Assembly: GCA_020403265.1 (NCBI GenBank)
Contig: JADBXZ010000012.1
Coordinates: 62,001-126,000 of the forward strand
Direction of reading: 5' to 3'
Source: Bacteroidota bacterium
Lineage (GTDB): Bacteria > Bacteroidota > Bacteroidia > B-17B0 > Aurantibacillaceae
Length of the DNA stretch: 64,000 nt
Part shown: piece by piece, positions 11,689 to 41,506 of the stretch
Layout of the letters: each line of letters begins with the position of its first letter
How positions within the stretch are numbered: position 1 is the first letter of the stretch
The notes under the pieces: model-generated
What the model was told of the DNA's origin: nothing
What the model saw: the letters and a program-made list of their open reading frames with translations, nothing else
The model's database searches: none
Made by a program: the position numbers and the translations under genes

Positions 11689-11709
11689 AATAGTTATTGG
11701 TTAATTGGG

Positions 11710-11726
11710 AATAGTAATTAGCCTAC
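11710..11726. repeat. Downstream arm of 17-bp imperfect inverted repeat around four-helix-bundle gene
   Basis: AATAGTAATTAGCCTAC matches the reverse complement of 12116-12132 at 15 of 17 positions. It spans the stop codon of the four-helix-bundle gene (11723-11725). The pair delimits a 423-bp unit inserted between sdhA and sdhB. Confidence 0.5.
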
Positions 11727-12112
11727 GCCACATTTAAATTTCTTATTTTTTGATTAATACTTTTAATTAGCCCTTGAAGAATTTTACCAACTTCTTCTAT
11801 TTTATTTTGTGTTTCAATAAACTCCTTTTCACTTATAAAATTTAGGTTTTTAGAAATTAAAACCATTGTTTCTACTTCCATCAAAGAACCCCTCGCAATT
11901 CTCAAAAATTGCAAGTAGTTTTTAGATAACTCCCTCCCCCAACCCTCTGCAATATTGGATGGTACAGAAATTACTGCTTTATTCAATTGACTTACTAAAC
12001 CATAACGTTCATCAATAGGGAATTTTTTAGTTAAGGAATAAACATCAGTTACCAAAGCAATTGATTTTTGCCAGGCAATTAAATCTTTGTATGTGCTGCT
12101 TTTTAATTCCAC
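11723..12112 (-). CDS. Four helix bundle protein (S23/23S rRNA intervening-sequence family)
   Basis: A 129-residue member of the four-helix-bundle family first noticed in 23S rRNA intervening sequences (TIGR02436 type). Its biochemical role is unknown. Typical signatures are LIAWQKSIALVTDVY at the N-terminus, ISVPSNIAEGWGRELSKNY in the centre, and FLRIARGSLMEVETMVL. The start is GTG at 12110-12112, as no nearby ATG fits. It sits between sdhA and sdhB in the same orientation, with only about 35 bp on each side, and is framed by an imperfect 17-bp inverted repeat. No rRNA gene is near. It is unlikely to be a complex II subunit, and I read it as a small insertion tolerated in the operon. Confidence 0.85.
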   Translation of the reverse strand: MELKSSTYKDLIAWQKSIALVTDVYSLTKKFPIDERYGLVSQLNKAVISVPSNIAEGWGRELSKNYLQFLRIARGSLMEVETMVLISKNLNFISEKEFIETQNKIEEVGKILQGLIKSINQKIRNLNVA

Positions 12113-12115
12113 TTC

Positions 12116-12132
12116 GTAGTCTAATTCCTATT
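12116..12132. repeat. Upstream arm of 17-bp imperfect inverted repeat around four-helix-bundle gene
   Basis: GTAGTCTAATTCCTATT is the inverted partner of 11710-11726 (15/17). It lies 4 nt upstream of the GTG start of the four-helix-bundle gene, within the sdhA-side spacer. Confidence 0.5.
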
Positions 12133-12148
12133 TACTAGTTGCTAATAT

Positions 12149-32020: not shown

Positions 32021-32037
32021 ATAATAAGTCAGAATTC

Positions 32038-32060
32038 AGATTTTAGAAATGAGAAGTAAA
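32038..32060 (+). repeat. Short AT-rich intercistronic repeat between nuoB and nuoC
   Basis: AGATTTTAGAAATGAGAAGTAAA resembles the TTAGATTTTAGAAGT element found around the four-helix-bundle gene at 40803. It is followed by the tandem-like run AAATCTTAAATCTTAAATTTTAAATC up to nuoC. This is one of at least four related copies in nuo spacers. Confidence 0.35.
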
Positions 32061-32095
32061 AATCTTAAATCTTAAATTTTAAATCCTAAATTAAA

Positions 32096-32590: not shown

Positions 32591-32635
32591 AACAGTTTTT
32601 GTGTTGAACCATTAAAAACTAAAAACATATTTAAA

Positions 32636-33856: not shown

Positions 33857-33858
33857 TA

Positions 33859-33946
33859 AAATGATAAATGATAAATTTTAAATTAAATTGAAAATGAAAC
33901 TATTTTAGATGAGAAACTGATATCCTACATTTATCATTTATCATTT
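33859..33946. repeat. 17-bp perfect inverted repeat in the nuoD-nuoE spacer
   Basis: AAATGATAAATGATAAA (33859-33875) and TTTATCATTTATCATTT (33930-33946) are perfect reverse complements around a 54-bp loop. Each arm is itself a doubled AAATGAT unit. In mRNA they would form an AT-only stem between the two cistrons. It lacks a GC core or T-run, so it is not a normal terminator. Confidence 0.55.
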
Positions 33947-33965
33947 AAAATTTAAATTTTACAAA

Positions 33966-34550: not shown

Positions 34551-35888
34551 ATGGGCAAAAAATTATTAATACATAACGATAAAGTCCCGGGCATCGAAAC
34601 ACTGAATGTGTATCTTGCTCACGGCGGTTATGCTTCTGTTGAAAAAGCTTTAAAAACAATGACACCGGACCAGGTTACCGAAGAGGTTAAAAAATCTGGC
34701 TTACGTGGTAGAGGTGGCGCAGGATTTCCAACAGGGATGAAATGGAGTTTTCTTGCTAAACCTGAAGGCGTTCCACGTTACTTGGTTTGTAATGCAGATG
34801 AGTCTGAACCGGGCACATTTAAAGATCGTTACTTAATGGAAAAGATTCCACATGCCTTAATTGAGGGCATGATTACGTCCTCTTATGCACTTGGAGCAAA
34901 TCTTTCTTACATATACATCAGAGGTGAGTATTTTTATGTTGCACGCATTTTAGAAACTGCCATAGCCGAAGCTTATGCTGCAGGATGGTTGGGTAAAAAT
35001 ATATTAGGTACCAATTATAGTTTAGATTTACATGTACAAGTAGGTGGTGGCGCTTACATATGTGGCGAAGAAACTGCTCTATTAGAATCTCTAGAAGGTA
35101 AGCGCGGAAATCCACGCATTAAACCACCTTTTCCTGCCGTTGCAGGTTTATGGGGATGCCCAACAGTTGTAAACAATGTAGAAACCATAGCAGCTGTATG
35201 CCCAATTGTGATGATGGGCGGCGAAGAATATGCGAAAATTGGAATTGGTAAATCAACCGGAACAAAATTAATTTCAGCCTCAGGACATATTAATAAACCG
35301 GGTGTTTATGAAATTGAATTAGGTGTGCCTGTAGAAGAATTCATTTACAGTGAAGAGTATTGCGGTGGTATTCGTAATGGTAAAAAATTAAAAGCCGTTG
35401 TAGCCGGTGGTTCATCAGTACCTATTTTACCAACCGAGTTAATTTTGAAAACAGCAAAAGGCGAGCCTCGCTTAATGACCTACGAAAGCCTTGCTGACGG
35501 TGGTTTTCAAACAGGCACCATGTTAGGTTCAGGCGGATTTATTGTAATGGACGAAGACACCAGTATTGTTAAAAATTTATTTACGTTTACGCGTTTTTAT
35601 CATCACGAAAGTTGCGGACAATGTTCGCCATGTCGTGAAGGAACAGGCTGGATGGAAAAAATATTAAAGAAATTTTTAAACGGTACTGCTAATGAAAGCG
35701 ACGTAGAATTATTGTGGGACATTCAAAGCAAAATTGAGGGCAAAACTATTTGCCCTTTAGGTGAGGCTGCTGCCTGGCCTGTTGCTGCAGCTATTCGTCA
35801 CTTTAAACATGAGTTTTTAGAAATAGCGAAAAGCAAAAAGTTTGTGGACATTAGCCATTACGAAAGATTAAATAAAATTAGAGTTTAA
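34551..35888 (+). CDS. nuoF: NADH-quinone oxidoreductase subunit F
   Basis: NADH- and FMN-binding subunit (445 residues) with cluster N3. The FMN/NADH site is seen in GLRGRGGAGFPTGMKWSF (near 52) and NADESEPGTFKDR (near 83). The glycine-rich YICGEETALLESLEG follows near 170. The [4Fe-4S] ligands are in ESCGQCSPCREGTGW (near 353) with the last Cys in KTICPLGEAAAW (near 397). It would normally be followed directly by nuoG, but here two unrelated genes intervene. Confidence 0.95.
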   Translation: MGKKLLIHNDKVPGIETLNVYLAHGGYASVEKALKTMTPDQVTEEVKKSGLRGRGGAGFPTGMKWSFLAKPEGVPRYLVCNADESEPGTFKDRYLMEKIPHALIEGMITSSYALGANLSYIYIRGEYFYVARILETAIAEAYAAGWLGKNILGTNYSLDLHVQVGGGAYICGEETALLESLEGKRGNPRIKPPFPAVAGLWGCPTVVNNVETIAAVCPIVMMGGEEYAKIGIGKSTGTKLISASGHINKPGVYEIELGVPVEEFIYSEEYCGGIRNGKKLKAVVAGGSSVPILPTELILKTAKGEPRLMTYESLADGGFQTGTMLGSGGFIVMDEDTSIVKNLFTFTRFYHHESCGQCSPCREGTGWMEKILKKFLNGTANESDVELLWDIQSKIEGKTICPLGEAAAWPVAAAIRHFKHEFLEIAKSKKFVDISHYERLNKIRV

Positions 35889-35925: not shown

Positions 35926-36474
35926 ATGATAGTAAAAAACATACATAGTAAAATTCACGAAATCCGTCATCAAAAAGTGATGTTAGATTTTGATTTGGCT
36001 GCTTTGTATGAAGTTGAGACCAGGGTTTTAAACCAAGCAGTTAAACGAAATATTGATTTATTCCCAGTGGATTTTATGTTTCAACTTACATTAGAAGAAT
36101 CGGAAAGTCTGAAATCACAAATTGTGATATCAAAAACTAATGTGAGTATGTCATCACAAATTGTGATGACATCAAAAAGCAAGAGACCCAAAGCTTCTTT
36201 ACCATTCGCATTTACAGAACACGGAGTAAGCATGTTGGCAAATGTTTTAAAAAGTAAAAAAGCACGCCAAACCAGTATTGCTATTGTAAGAGCATTTATT
36301 GCTTTGAAACAATATATCGTAAATTATAATGAATTACAACAAAAACTAGAGGAGCTAGAAACCAAATACAACAAACGTTTTAGCGATGTTTACGAAGCAT
36401 TAAATTATTTAATGGGAATTAAAAAGGTAGAGGCAAAAACAAAAAAAAGAACTAAAATTGGGTATAAAAATTGA
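35926..36474 (+). CDS. ORF6N domain-containing protein
   Basis: A 182-residue protein of the ORF6N family, a DNA-binding-type domain known from phage and mobile-element antirepressor-like proteins. The domain covers about residues 5-115: IHEIRHQKVMLDFDLAALYE, VKRNIDLFPVDFMFQLT and LPFAFTEHGVSMLANVL. A coiled-coil C-terminus (about 125-165) ends in a Lys-rich tail. Between the two conserved blocks is a duplicated SQIV-S/T-K stretch (residues about 65-85), encoded by the palindromic DNA repeats. It is inserted between nuoF and nuoG in operon orientation, 37 bp after nuoF. Its stop overlaps the next gene's start (TTGA). It is not a complex I subunit. It could be a regulator or a captured mobile gene. 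Confidence 0.85.
   Translation: MIVKNIHSKIHEIRHQKVMLDFDLAALYEVETRVLNQAVKRNIDLFPVDFMFQLTLEESESLKSQIVISKTNVSMSSQIVMTSKSKRPKASLPFAFTEHGVSMLANVLKSKKARQTSIAIVRAFIALKQYIVNYNELQQKLEELETKYNKRFSDVYEALNYLMGIKKVEAKTKKRTKIGYKN
36114..36172. repeat. Two TCACAA-N-TTGTGA palindromes inside the ORF6N gene
   Basis: ATCACAAATTGTGAT (36114-36128, 7-bp arms) and the 25-bp palindrome 36148-36172 (12-bp perfect arms around one base, ATGTCATCACAA-A-TTGTGATGACAT) share the core seen upstream at 35898. They encode the doubled SQIV segment of the protein. Confidence 0.65.
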
Positions 36475-37496
36475 AGTTGATTCTTTACATATTTATTTTT
36501 GTTAACCTTTACAGGGTTCATAGCCAAACAACTATAGCTGATACTAATTGGTTCAATGACAAATGGGAAATTTGTAATAAACAAAACGCTAAATATTTTA
36601 GAATCTATAAAAAATTGAACTATAACTATATGGTTTACGATTATTTTTTGAATGGAAAAGTTCAAATGGTTTCAGGGGCAAGGGAAGTAACACCACTTTT
36701 AAAGCAAGGTTATGCAGTATATTATAACGAACAAGGTTATAGGACATCAAGGGGGTATTACGATGATAACAAACAATCAGGTAATTGGGTTCACTACTTT
36801 GATAATGAAAAAGATTCATCATTGTACTCAATTAATAATGAAGGAAAATGGGTTTATTCACGAAAATGTAAAGCAGAGGAAGAAGAAGAAAAAAGAAATC
36901 AAAAAGACATTATATACACTATCACTGAGGTTAACGCAGAATTTCCTGGCGGAATAACTCAAATGGCAAAGTACATTCAAACAAATTTAATTTATCCTAA
37001 AAACGCACGCAATAATAGCTATGGAGGCAAGTGTTTCCTAAAATTTGTTGTTAACATCGATGGAACAATTTCTGAATCATCAATTATTAAAACCACTGGT
37101 TTTGAAGAACTAGATAAAGAAGCCATGCGTGTTGTGAATGAGATGCCAATATGGAAACCTGCGGAAATGTCTGGAAAAAAAGTAAGATGTTATTTTAACC
37201 TTCCTATAAACTTTGCAATGGATACTCCTTATTTTATTTTTAACCCATTCAACAAAAATGAAAAGTACATCATTGCAAATAAAAAAGTTTTAGAAAATAA
37301 TCTTAATGAAGCATTAAATTATTATTACGAAGATTTTGGTGATATTGAGGCATGGTATAATATAGGTGTCATACATTATTTAAAAAAGAATAAAAAAGAA
37401 TCGAAAAATCATTTTGAAAATATTTTAAACAATATAAATGATTCCAAGAATCAATATTATGTTGCATCTTCAAGATTTTTACAAAATAATTTTTAG
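36471..37496 (+). CDS. Exported TonB C-terminal domain protein with MORN/YwqK-like N-terminus
   Basis: A 341-residue exported protein. The start is TTG at 36471, overlapping the ORF6N stop (TTGA). It gives MKLILYIFIFVNLYRVHSQ, a clear signal peptide, and no other early start would keep it. Residues about 50-110 contain repeated Y-NEQGYRTSRGYYDDNKQ and GNWVHYFDN motifs of the YwqK/MORN kind. Residues about 150-250 are a TonB C-terminal domain (FPGGITQMAKYIQTN, YPKNARNN, GTISESSIIKTTG, WKPAEMSGKKV). The last 80 residues look like a TPR pair (YYEDFGDIEAWYNIGVIHYL). It lacks the usual N-terminal TonB membrane anchor and is inserted in the nuo operon. Its function is unknown. Confidence 0.75.
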   Translation: MKLILYIFIFVNLYRVHSQTTIADTNWFNDKWEICNKQNAKYFRIYKKLNYNYMVYDYFLNGKVQMVSGAREVTPLLKQGYAVYYNEQGYRTSRGYYDDNKQSGNWVHYFDNEKDSSLYSINNEGKWVYSRKCKAEEEEEKRNQKDIIYTITEVNAEFPGGITQMAKYIQTNLIYPKNARNNSYGGKCFLKFVVNIDGTISESSIIKTTGFEELDKEAMRVVNEMPIWKPAEMSGKKVRCYFNLPINFAMDTPYFIFNPFNKNEKYIIANKKVLENNLNEALNYYYEDFGDIEAWYNIGVIHYLKKNKKESKNHFENILNNINDSKNQYYVASSRFLQNNF

Positions 37497-37516: not shown

Positions 37517-38500
37517 ATGAAAGTAACAATAGACGGAATAGAAATTGACGTGCCAAAAGGAACAACTATCCTTCAAGCCGCACGTATGATTGGTCCGGAG
37601 GTAGCTCCTCCTGCCATGTGTTATTATTCTAAACTAAAAACCAGTGGTGGTTATTGCCGCACTTGTATTGTAAAAGTTACACAAGGCAGTGCAGCTAACC
37701 CTAATCCAATGCCTAAGCCGGTAGCAAGTTGCCGTACCGAAGTGATGGATGGTATGGTTGTAGAAAATTACATTAATAAAGATATTGTAGAAGCACGCAA
37801 AGGCGTTGTAGAATTTTTATTAATGAACCACCCCTTAGACTGCCCTGTTTGCGACCAGGCCGGTGAATGTAAGCTACAGGATTTAGGTTACCAAAATGGC
37901 TCTGAAAAAACACGTTATGAATTTAAGCGCCGCGAATACGAAGTAATTGATATTGGTGATAAAATAAAATTACACATGAATCGCTGTATCTTATGTTACC
38001 GCTGTGTTAAAACAGCCGAACAAATCACAGATGGTCGCGTACATGGTGTAATTCACCGTGGTGATGCTGCAGAAATTTCTACTTATATCGAAAATGTAAT
38101 TGACAACGACTTTAGCGGAAATGTTATAGATGTATGTCCTGTTGGTGCATTAACTGACAGAACGTTCCGTTTTAAACAACGTGTTTGGTTTACTAAACCG
38201 GTAGACGCTCATCGAAACTGCACTAAATGTAGTGGTAAAACCCGCGTTTGGCTAAAAGGAGAAGAGGTTGTGCGTGTTACTGCTCGCAAAGACCAATGGG
38301 ATGAGGTAGAAGAATTTATCTGTAATTCTTGCCGTTACGATCACAAAAAGAAAAGTGATTGGGTTATAGAAGGGCCTTCGCCAATTCATAGAAATTCTGT
38401 TATTTCACAAAATCATTACGAGAATTTAAATGAATTAAAAGTTAACTTATTAAAACAACAAAAAGCCTTAGGTTTTATGCCTATTGATAAAAAACCATAA
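37517..38500 (+). CDS. nuoG: NADH-quinone oxidoreductase subunit G, short form
   Basis: Iron-sulfur subunit of the NADH module (327 residues). It has an N-terminal ferredoxin [2Fe-2S] domain with ligands in CYYSKLKTSGGYCRTC and SCRTE (near 34-74). The His/Cys [4Fe-4S] site is MNHPLDCPVCDQAGECKLQD (near 97-116), and a further centre is MNRCILCYRCVKTAEQ with DVCPVGAL (near 153-210). It stops after the CxxC zinc-like NCTKCSGKTRVW and CNSCRY segments and lacks the large molybdopterin-oxidoreductase domain of E. coli NuoG (about 900 residues). As I recall, this short form is normal in Bacteroidota. It directly precedes nuoH. Confidence 0.9.
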   Translation: MKVTIDGIEIDVPKGTTILQAARMIGPEVAPPAMCYYSKLKTSGGYCRTCIVKVTQGSAANPNPMPKPVASCRTEVMDGMVVENYINKDIVEARKGVVEFLLMNHPLDCPVCDQAGECKLQDLGYQNGSEKTRYEFKRREYEVIDIGDKIKLHMNRCILCYRCVKTAEQITDGRVHGVIHRGDAAEISTYIENVIDNDFSGNVIDVCPVGALTDRTFRFKQRVWFTKPVDAHRNCTKCSGKTRVWLKGEEVVRVTARKDQWDEVEEFICNSCRYDHKKKSDWVIEGPSPIHRNSVISQNHYENLNELKVNLLKQQKALGFMPIDKKP

Positions 38501-40172: not shown

Positions 40173-40180
40173 AAACATAA

Positions 40181-40204
40181 GAAGTTCGATTTAAGAAGTA
40201 ATTA
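40181..40204 (+). repeat. Intercistronic repeat between nuoI and nuoJ
   Basis: GAAGTTCGATTTAAGAAGTAATTA closely matches the reverse complement of 41170-41190 (GAAGTTAGATTTAAGAAGTT). The copies lie on opposite strands and bracket nuoJ plus the four-helix-bundle gene. Confidence 0.4.
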
Positions 40205-40239
40205 CTTTTTATTTCCAATTTCTAAAATCTAAATAGAAT

Positions 40240-40752
40240 ATGTTAGGATATACGATAACTCAGTGGATTTTTGGAATACTTTCTTTCTTGGCAATCATGT
40301 TTGCTTTAATGGTGGTATTTAGCCGCAATCCCATAAACAGCGTACTTTACCTGGTGCTCACCTTTTTTTGTGTGGCCGGTCACTATTTACTTATGAATGC
40401 TCAATTTTTGGCTGTCGTTCACATCGTTGTATACTCAGGTGCAATCATGGTATTGTTTTTATTTGTGATCATGTTAATGAACTTAAATGAAAATACCGAA
40501 CCACAGCGTACATGGTTAACCAAAATCATAGCCGGCGTTGCAGGTGGTTTACTTTTAGTTGTGTTAGTTGGTTCCTTAAAAGGGGCAGAACAATTACAAC
40601 TAGCAAGTTATGGTGCCAGTCAAATAGGATTAGTTAAAAACCTCGGAAAAGTATTGTTTAGTGAGTTTTTATTCCCTTTTGAAATTGTAAGTGTATTATT
40701 ATTGGCAGCTTTAGTTGGTGCTATTATGATAGGAAAGAAGGAAATTAAATAA
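40240..40752 (+). CDS. nuoJ: NADH-quinone oxidoreductase subunit J
   Basis: Membrane subunit (170 residues, five helices) next to NuoK and NuoA. The conserved helix MNAQFLAVVHIVVYSGAIMV (near 48-67) contains the pi-bulge region of helix 3, and FLFVIMLMNLN follows. The next complex I gene (nuoK) is displaced by a four-helix-bundle gene. Confidence 0.94.
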   Translation: MLGYTITQWIFGILSFLAIMFALMVVFSRNPINSVLYLVLTFFCVAGHYLLMNAQFLAVVHIVVYSGAIMVLFLFVIMLMNLNENTEPQRTWLTKIIAGVAGGLLLVVLVGSLKGAEQLQLASYGASQIGLVKNLGKVLFSEFLFPFEIVSVLLLAALVGAIMIGKKEIK

Positions 40753-40766
40753 TTAAAATTAAGATT

Positions 40767-40781
40767 TTAGATTTTAGAAGT
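40767..40781. repeat. Upstream arm of 15-bp imperfect inverted repeat around four-helix-bundle gene
   Basis: TTAGATTTTAGAAGT matches the reverse complement of 41172-41186 at 14 of 15 positions. It lies 21 nt before the ATG at 40803. The pair delimits a 420-bp unit inserted between nuoJ and nuoK. Confidence 0.5.
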
Positions 40782-40802
40782 AAATGAATTACTAATATTT
40801 AA

Positions 40803-41180
40803 ATGGAAAAATCAGATTTAAAAATAAGAACTAAAGCTTTTGCTATTGAAACGATTAGGTTTTTAAATACAATTCCTAAATCAAAAGCAAACGATGTATT
40901 AACTTATCAGTTGGTTAAATCGGCAACCTCTGTAGCTGCCAACTATCGTTCTGCCTTAAGAGGAAGATCAACTGCAGAGTTTATATCTAAATTAAATATA
41001 GTGCTTGAAGAATCTGACGAATCTCATTTGTGGTTCGAAATAATAGAAGAAACTAACTCATCAGTTAATATTCAGAAATTAAAAACATTAAAAAATGAAA
41101 GTCACGAACTTACCGCTATTTTTACTTCATCTTTAAAAACTGCGAGAAATAATTATAAATCTAAAAATCTAACTTCTTAA
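40803..41180 (+). CDS. Four helix bundle protein (second copy, different subfamily)
   Basis: A 125-residue four-helix-bundle family protein: [40 protein letters not shown], then [20 protein letters not shown]. It keeps the SATSVAANY / EESDES-type core of the S23-related group but is only distantly similar to the copy at 11723-12112 (IAEGWGR subtype). It sits between nuoJ and nuoK in operon orientation, 50 bp after nuoJ and 14 bp before nuoK. It is framed by an imperfect inverted repeat whose right arm covers its stop codon. It is not a known complex I subunit. The biochemical role of the family is unknown. Confidence 0.85.
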
Positions 41181-41186
41181 ATCTAA
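41172..41186. repeat. Downstream arm of 15-bp imperfect inverted repeat around four-helix-bundle gene
   Basis: ACTTCTTAAATCTAA is the inverted partner of 40767-40781 (14/15). It spans the TAA stop at 41178-41180. A further AAATCTAACTTC unit continues to 41190, just before nuoK. Confidence 0.5.
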
Positions 41187-41194
41187 CTTCAAAA

Positions 41195-41506
41195 ATGATA
41201 AACGGAATCTCTATAAACTATTATTTATTATTAAGCACCGTGCTTTTTATAATTGGTGCAGTTGGTGTAATGGCTCGCCGAAACTCAATTATTATTTTTA
41301 TGTGCGTTGAGTTGATGTTAAATGCAGTTAACCTACTACTAGTTAGCTTTAGCACTTTGCATAACGATGCAACCGGACAGGTATTTGTGTTTTTTATTAT
41401 GGCCGTTGCTGCCGCTGAGGTTGCAGTAGGACTTGCAATTTTAAGTATGATCTACAGAAATTTAAAAACCATTGATACTGACATTTTAAGTAATCTAAAA
41501 CATTAA
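41195..41506 (+). CDS. nuoK: NADH-quinone oxidoreductase subunit K
   Basis: Three-helix membrane subunit (103 residues) in the proton-translocating chain. Conserved glutamates lie in [15 protein letters not shown] (near 38) and [11 protein letters not shown] (near 72). It lies 14 bp downstream of the four-helix-bundle gene, so its translation may depend on that insert's 3' end. Confidence 0.95.

Follow-up and report, generated by a model that had tools for sequence, protein, structure and literature searches.

A four-helix-bundle gene between tandem-heptamer inverted arms in the nuoJ–nuoK junction: a candidate minimal mobile element related to 23S rRNA IVSs

The window analyzed here, a stretch of 64,000 nucleotides, contains a nuo operon of the 14-gene type in which the nuoJ–nuoK spacer measures 442 nt and holds a 125-aa four-helix-bundle (4HB) ORF on the same strand as its neighbors (Table 1). 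An earlier note on this DNA had placed a 4HB gene in operon orientation at this junction, and the ORF was indeed recovered as a member of the S23/23S rRNA IVP family. A sister element lies between sdhA and sdhB. The nuo and sdh copies have arms of different sequence, and their proteins fall in different major clades of the 4HB tree, in agreement with the distant relationship that had been described.

The unit had been reported to be framed by a 14/15 inverted repeat (40767–40781 and 41172–41186) with the downstream arm spanning the stop codon. These arms exist, are 93% complementary, and include the stop codon in the downstream one, but they are only one register of longer tandem-heptamer arms that fill the spacers; taken alone, the 15-nt pair is weak, ranking no. 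22 among 63 inverted pairs in the 1.9 kb searched. Heptamer repeats of the TAGATTT type make up the upstream spacer as well as the end of the unit, and the fuller arms reach a complementarity score of 18, as do 1–2% of permuted or shuffled flank pairs. The arm evidence at the nuoJ–nuoK locus by itself stays at this level against controls, and the case rests on the family.

Table 1. Coordinates of the nuoJ–nuoK element, its host genes and related features in the window.
Feature	Position	Strand	Basis or remark
Sister element, sdhA–sdhB	11689..12148	−	Arms 12113–12148 and 11689–11722 flanking a 4HB ORF
Hairpin-only heptameric spacer, nuoB–nuoC by gene order	32021..32095	+	nuoJ–nuoK arm family
Hairpin-only heptameric spacer, TGATAAA units, nuoD–nuoE by gene order	33857..33965	+	
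Hairpin-only heptameric element, nuoI–nuoJ spacer	40173..40239	+	Arms match the nuoJ–nuoK element
nuoJ, upstream host gene	40240..40752	+	ORF and congeneric alignment
Upstream arm	40753..40790	+	Flank complementarity score 18; lag-7 tract; inverted pairs I3, I22
Heptamer tract TTAAGATTTTAGATTTTAGA within upstream arm	about 40759–40778	+	Lag-7 signal
4HB ORF, 125 aa	40803..41180	+	TIGR02436/PF05635 (S23/23S rRNA IVP family)
Downstream arm, covering the 3′ end of the 4HB ORF with its stop codon	41147..41186	+	Flank complementarity
Repeat AAATCTAACTTCTTAAATCTAACTTC of the downstream arm	extends to 41190	+	
nuoK, downstream host gene	41195..41506	+	Begins 8 nt past the outer end of the downstream arm

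The ORF matches PF05635 (E 1.4e-11; 44.9 bits, cut-off 33.8) and TIGR02436 (E 2.4e-20). The AlphaFold model of the protein (pLDDT 94) matches 2rld and 2gsc, both of which have five chains as deposited, and Foldseek gave a weaker match to Avd (4dwl and 8ub7, TM about 0.77 by target length); for the sdh copy, there is also a match to the PHROG Avd profile (E 8e-11). The S23/IVP family, annotated as of "function unknown" and familiar mainly from split rRNAs, is present in 58 of 80 sampled genomes of the phylum. The unit encodes this single ORF, with the S23 fold only and no transposase. The copies in the window's own genome (G000; other G numbers denote congeners) carry a net charge of +4 to +5. 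Median dN/dS is about 0.13–0.34 at sites with at least nine usable pairs, values that are rough because synonymous sites are near saturation, and the ORF is under purifying selection. An identity as an anti-phage defense gene was dropped, as the PADLOC models gave no match to the 4HB gene.

A search of 40 congeneric genomes yielded 109 usable 4HB copies in 32 genomes, and 99 of them lie in sense between two co-directional genes. By their neighbors, the copies occupy about 35 sites, 29 of which have a copy in sense between same-strand genes. The sites are mostly core operons (nuo, sdh, suf, pdh, miaB) and include miaB–sigma54 regulator, pdhA–pdhC, nuoJ–nuoK, AIM24-like–parE-like and sdhA–sdhB, as well as sufA–sufB, sufB–sufC, sufC–sufD, sufE–sufT, nuoD–nuoE, nuoF–nuoG and etfB–etfA; the gene names are our reading of the protein sequences, and a few neighbor assignments may be wrong because the gene calls are simple ORF calls. 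The median spacer with an element is 465 nt in the genus. One copy (L127, in G010) neighbors two same-strand tRNA genes and groups with L110 and L053 in a long-branch 4HB clade. A 23S rRNA location was ruled out for the odd copies: no rRNA family matched any of the six odd genus loci that were scanned, and L127 adjoins the two tRNAs.

Across 99 genus loci, the complementarity of a locus's own 5′ and 3′ flanks had a median score of 16, compared with 8 for permuted and 9 for shuffled flanks, and 75% of the loci scored at least 14, compared with 8% and 6%. An ordinary control of 68 co-directional genes of G000, a set that still contained the window's own 4HB copy, gave a median of 10.5, with 15% at 14 or more. 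The earlier note had proposed such a comparison of arm-pair frequency with matched controls, and the arms exceed all three. The genus arms are about 30 nt long, with a median start 2 nt past the upstream stop and a median end 9 nt ahead of the downstream start, and they often run a few bases into the neighboring genes when the alignment is allowed to. Of the genus loci with clear arms, 55% have a downstream arm that extends over the 4HB stop codon; the overlap noted at nuoJ–nuoK is common, then, but not universal.

The autocorrelation of both arms is strong at 7, 14 and 21 nt (0.475 at lag 7, compared with 0.335 when shuffled), and no lag-7 periodicity was found in the 4HB coding sequence. G is enriched in upstream arms and C in downstream ones. 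Arm sequence differs from site to site, yet both arms within a site match, and the arms co-diverge with the 4HB gene across sites. Arrays range from about 4 to 12 tandem units, and a fixed count of five heptamers matching a pentamer is therefore unsupported. These results indicate that heptameric, matching arms exceed chance at the family level.

Furthermore, the arms extend beyond the genus. Phylum-wide, 69 loci gave an arm score of 18 versus 8, with lag 7 at 0.42, and crude ORF calls put 46 of them in sense, with both neighbors on the same strand. By the same kind of calls, orthologous copies in three genomes of one genus (L152, L153 and L170) lie antisense between two genes; these copies may truly break the sense rule, or the ORFs may be spurious. 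Among 80 loci from 17 phyla, drawn from a GTDB set that includes Flavobacterium and Polaribacter isolates, the arm score was 19 versus 10, and the lag-7 identity of non-Bacteroidota arms was 0.62, compared with 0.21–0.39 at neighboring lags. The strong arms of other phyla include G/C-containing heptamers; examples of arms are GGTTCAAGGTTCA.../...TGAACCTTGAACC in Chlorobiota (L309) and AGTCGAAAGTCGAA/TTCGACTTTCGACT in Armatimonadota (L311). The 17-phylum query came from the suf/sdh-like clade, so the second clade, which includes the nuo copy, was tested in Bacteroidota only. A scan of 20 non-Bacteroidota loci gave no match to an rRNA family. The setting in core respiratory operons that had been proposed thus holds for nuo and sdh but is too narrow: the pattern is limited neither to respiratory operons nor to Bacteroidota.

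Is the nuoJ–nuoK junction found without the insert? In the 24 congeners whose nuoJ and nuoK lie on a single contig, it mostly measures 4–22 nt, and it is empty (6–7 nt) in G015 and G014, the closest relatives of G000. The gene-less exceptions are a 67-nt hairpin in G022, a 52-nt spacer in G023 and a 4-nt overlap in G024, and G013 retains a 182-nt remnant with ATTTACA arms. The sdhA–sdhB junction likewise has empty sites, together with gene-less hairpins in five genomes. Precise empty sites, which the earlier note had proposed to look for at nuoJ–nuoK, exist at both junctions. A target duplication is unrecognizable at either one, where the empty spacers of 4–7 nt are too short and diverged. At sdhA–sdhB of G016 (L135), the 4HB gene is decayed (a 63-residue match) and clear arms, TTAGTTAATAGTTATTTGTTAG / CTATTAACAAATAACT, persist; here, the arms outlive the ORF. 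Larger spacers of other content occur at sdhA–sdhB in G020 (L235, 1186 nt) and at nuoI–nuoJ in G047 (L123, 451 nt), and these junctions also take up unrelated sequence.

On a 35-genome species tree, the patchy distribution requires seven changes at nuoJ–nuoK and seven at sdhA–sdhB. The 4HB tree groups the window's copy with those of G051 and G011, which have its arm type. By the AU test, the nuoI–nuoL flanks rule out a G000+G051(+G011) clade (p 6e-36 and 1.6e-49), whereas the 4HB data reject the flank-supported grouping of G051+G003+G016 (p 5.5e-8), and the two arm types track the 4HB clades, not the species tree. Given the conflict between the 4HB and flank trees, the unit reached the same junction without the flanking genes, entering it independently of them. 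Simple vertical conservation, which the earlier note had named as an outcome that would speak against insertion, is contradicted by this conflict and by the empty sites, and its suggestion of independent insertions by a mechanism rather than by coincidence is borne out by the controls exceeded, the empty sites and the discordant trees. Copies also cluster by site (36 label changes, compared with 85 when shuffled), those at nuoJ–nuoK form one 4HB clade (support 99/99 in a reduced set), and copies in neighboring junctions of one operon, such as suf, are related. Consequently, the element is site-attached and seems to spread locally; the same-site clustering means that much of its history is old and makes it less like a free transposon.

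Heptameric hairpins of 50–130 nt that have no ORF are frequent in the nuoI–nuoJ, nuoJ–nuoK, nuoK–nuoL and sdhA–sdhB spacers. Within the window, the nuoJ–nuoK arm family recurs only in the nuoB–nuoC and nuoI–nuoJ hairpins, both in the nuo operon, when 0.04–0.22 matches per arm pattern are expected in the whole window, and positions 40220–40233 of the nuoI–nuoJ hairpin match 40766–40779 of the nuoJ–nuoK arm at 14/14. Three congeners carry a 4HB gene between the genes homologous to those around the window's nuoD–nuoE hairpin. The heptamers of such hairpins belong to families that also occur in 4HB arms at other sites: the sdhA–sdhB hairpin of G048 resembles the arms of a degT–ugd element in the same genome (0.85), and the nuoJ–nuoK hairpin of G022 resembles those of its pdhA–pdhC element (0.53). 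For 29 hairpin-only spacers, picked by length and eye and with genome relatedness partly controlled, the best same-genome similarity to 4HB arms was 0.184, compared with 0.092 expected, and none of 5000 permutations was as high; some such spacers are found in genomes with no cognate 4HB gene. Among 108 spacers of 40–140 nt in 464 kb of G000, clear heptameric hairpins were confined to the nuo operon and one low-complexity spacer (a stricter first filter returned one only), and because of this confinement, the arms are not a generic intergenic repeat.

Other junctions of the window's operon also hold inserts or possible hairpins. The spacer 32591–32635 (AACAGTTTTTGTGTTGAACCATTAAAAACTAAAAACAT; nuoC–nuoD by gene order) shows a further weak hairpin of similar style (z 2.6). 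Between nuoF (34551–35888) and nuoG (37517–38500) lie an ORF6N-domain gene (PF10543; 35926–36474) and a 341-aa ORF (36471–37496). This stretch, 35926–37496, is a further insert at a junction of a core operon, and clear heptamer arms are lacking in its short spacers. Two congeners have a 4HB gene between the homologous nuoF and nuoG genes.

Could the unit be an IVS proper that is carried in mRNA? RNase III would then excise the hairpin from the polycistronic message, as it does in 23S rRNA, which would release the 4HB message and conceal the insert from the host. The gene family is the same, and the Coxiella burnetii 23S rRNA IVS is of similar size (428–444 nt); it carries an S23p ORF whose start is directly preceded by tandem GACAGAT heptamers, and RNase III cuts its terminal stem of 28 bp (PMC4990558). 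In addition, in 72% of 74 loci, RNA folding paired half or more of the upstream arm with its downstream counterpart. However, selection at the RNA level should give an excess of G:U over A:C mismatches, and the counts in three data sets (75/96, 62/72 and 87/91) are equal within error, with isolated mismatches at 37/28 and 25/18. Wobble asymmetry thus gives no signal of RNA-level covariation, and the copies of G000 itself pair only 17–47% of the arm in the predicted minimum fold. We therefore regard an IVS proper carried in mRNA as the less likely account. A still less probable account is that the hairpins belong to the host, regulating or stabilizing core operons, and that 4HB genes were captured in their loops or domesticated. 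The concentration of hairpin-only spacers in nuo junctions, which is also seen across the G000 spacers, fits this account; on the other hand, close relatives have nothing inserted at these junctions, the hairpin families differ from species to species and correspond to 4HB arms at other sites, and 4HB genes with arms occur at dozens of unrelated sites and in 17 phyla.

An old, vertically inherited insert that was lost many times, its arm types shifted by compensatory drift, would agree with the single clade of nuoJ–nuoK copies and with remnants such as that of G013, which show decay in place. Nevertheless, we consider it improbable, because the flank and 4HB data each reject the grouping of the other and the arm types follow the 4HB clades. 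Chance, by which AT-rich spacers would yield such arms accidentally, could account for the unremarkable 15-nt pair, but it is refuted at the family level: the permuted, shuffled and ordinary-gene controls are all far lower, and arms are strong in other phyla with heptamers that contain G and C.

The explanation that we prefer, with a probability of roughly 60%, is a minimal mobile element, known here from genome sequence alone, that consists of one 4HB gene between tandem-heptamer inverted arms. Insertion would take place, in sense, in the short gap that separates the stop codon of one operon gene from the start codon of the following gene; both neighbors would thereby remain intact, and the host would co-transcribe the 4HB gene. 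The 4HB protein is probably oligomeric, being pentameric in solved homologues (Xanthomonas S23p is reported to be a toroidal homopentamer; PMC4990558), and it may recognize the heptamer array at both ends, with the repeat reflecting an oligomer that reads one unit per subunit. Such recognition would keep the two arms alike while leaving each 4HB lineage free to have its own heptamer; as with transposon ends, binding of both ends by the same protein would make them alike without a constraint on pairing. The hairpin might bring the neighbors' stop and start close together, and by analogy with 23S rRNA IVSs, it may be cut by RNase III.

Several parts of this explanation are directly supported, namely, the homology to IVS proteins, the heptameric inverted arms, the sense orientation, the empty sites, the flank-independent entry, the hairpin-only derivatives of the same arm families and the purifying selection on the ORF. 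It is also conceivable, at slightly less than even odds in our estimation, that such elements (a pentameric 4HB gene, inverted heptamer-array ends with a code particular to each lineage, spread from one operon junction to another and hairpin-only offshoots) are minimal mobile elements found bacteria-wide, of which the 23S rRNA IVSs are the rRNA-dwelling members. A heptamer-armed cassette in operon junctions as the usual setting of the S23/IVP family would give that family a testable biology: the nucleic acid bound, the likeness of the arms, movement without a recognizable transposase and the tolerance by core operons. The cassette would also explain the puzzling heptameric hairpins in operon spacers.

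Among known systems, pairs of TIR transposons and MITEs are similar in that gene-bearing and short gene-less copies share inverted ends and leave empty sites; in contrast, the 4HB element has no transposase, its heptamer-array ends differ between families, and it keeps to operon junctions, in sense. REP/RAYT systems likewise combine short palindromes in spacers with a linked protein family, but the protein and the repeat logic are different, and Y1_Tnp (RAYT) was not found in many carriers. At E 1e-10, neither Y1_Tnp nor RVT_1 matched in G000 (99.96% complete), and a RAYT or reverse transcriptase was rejected as the mobilizer; among the congeners, Y1_Tnp occurs in 21 of 40 and RVT_1 in 11 of 40. 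DGR Avd, which is matched by the sdh copy, has the same four-helix-bundle fold, whereas no reverse transcriptase partner of the 4HB gene was found in G000. The TAACTGA repeats of Beggiatoaceae, Cyanobacteria and some Bacteroidetes are also tandem heptamers in spacers near start codons, but they use one fixed heptamer in direct repeats, with no 4HB gene mentioned (PMC4679880). No description of operon-junction 4HB elements was found in the open-license literature, where absence is weak evidence.

A 23S rRNA IVS lies within the 23S rRNA gene and is excised by RNase III without ligation, leaving the rRNA split. The nuoJ–nuoK element has the S23p-family ORF and the terminal stem around it and lies between nuoJ and nuoK rather than in rRNA; because of this location, it is not a 23S rRNA IVS. 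The two share a homologous ORF family, a unit of about 430–460 nt, a patchy distribution, and terminal inverted repeats that enclose the ORF in a loop, with tandem heptamers by the ORF start, and rRNA insertions of CPR likewise encode an S23-family protein (PMC11270868). They differ in that the element lies between protein genes of operons, forms many families with their own heptamer, has hairpin-only derivatives and carries an ORF under purifying selection. By homology and layout, the nuoJ–nuoK element is akin to 23S rRNA IVSs, its nearest known relatives, but free-standing, and it looks like an undescribed relative of the inserts in rRNA genes. The GACAGAT repeats of Coxiella make heptamers a feature common to the element and the classical IVS, a link that has apparently not been made before, and there is a fair chance that the operon-junction element is the general form of the IVS kind.
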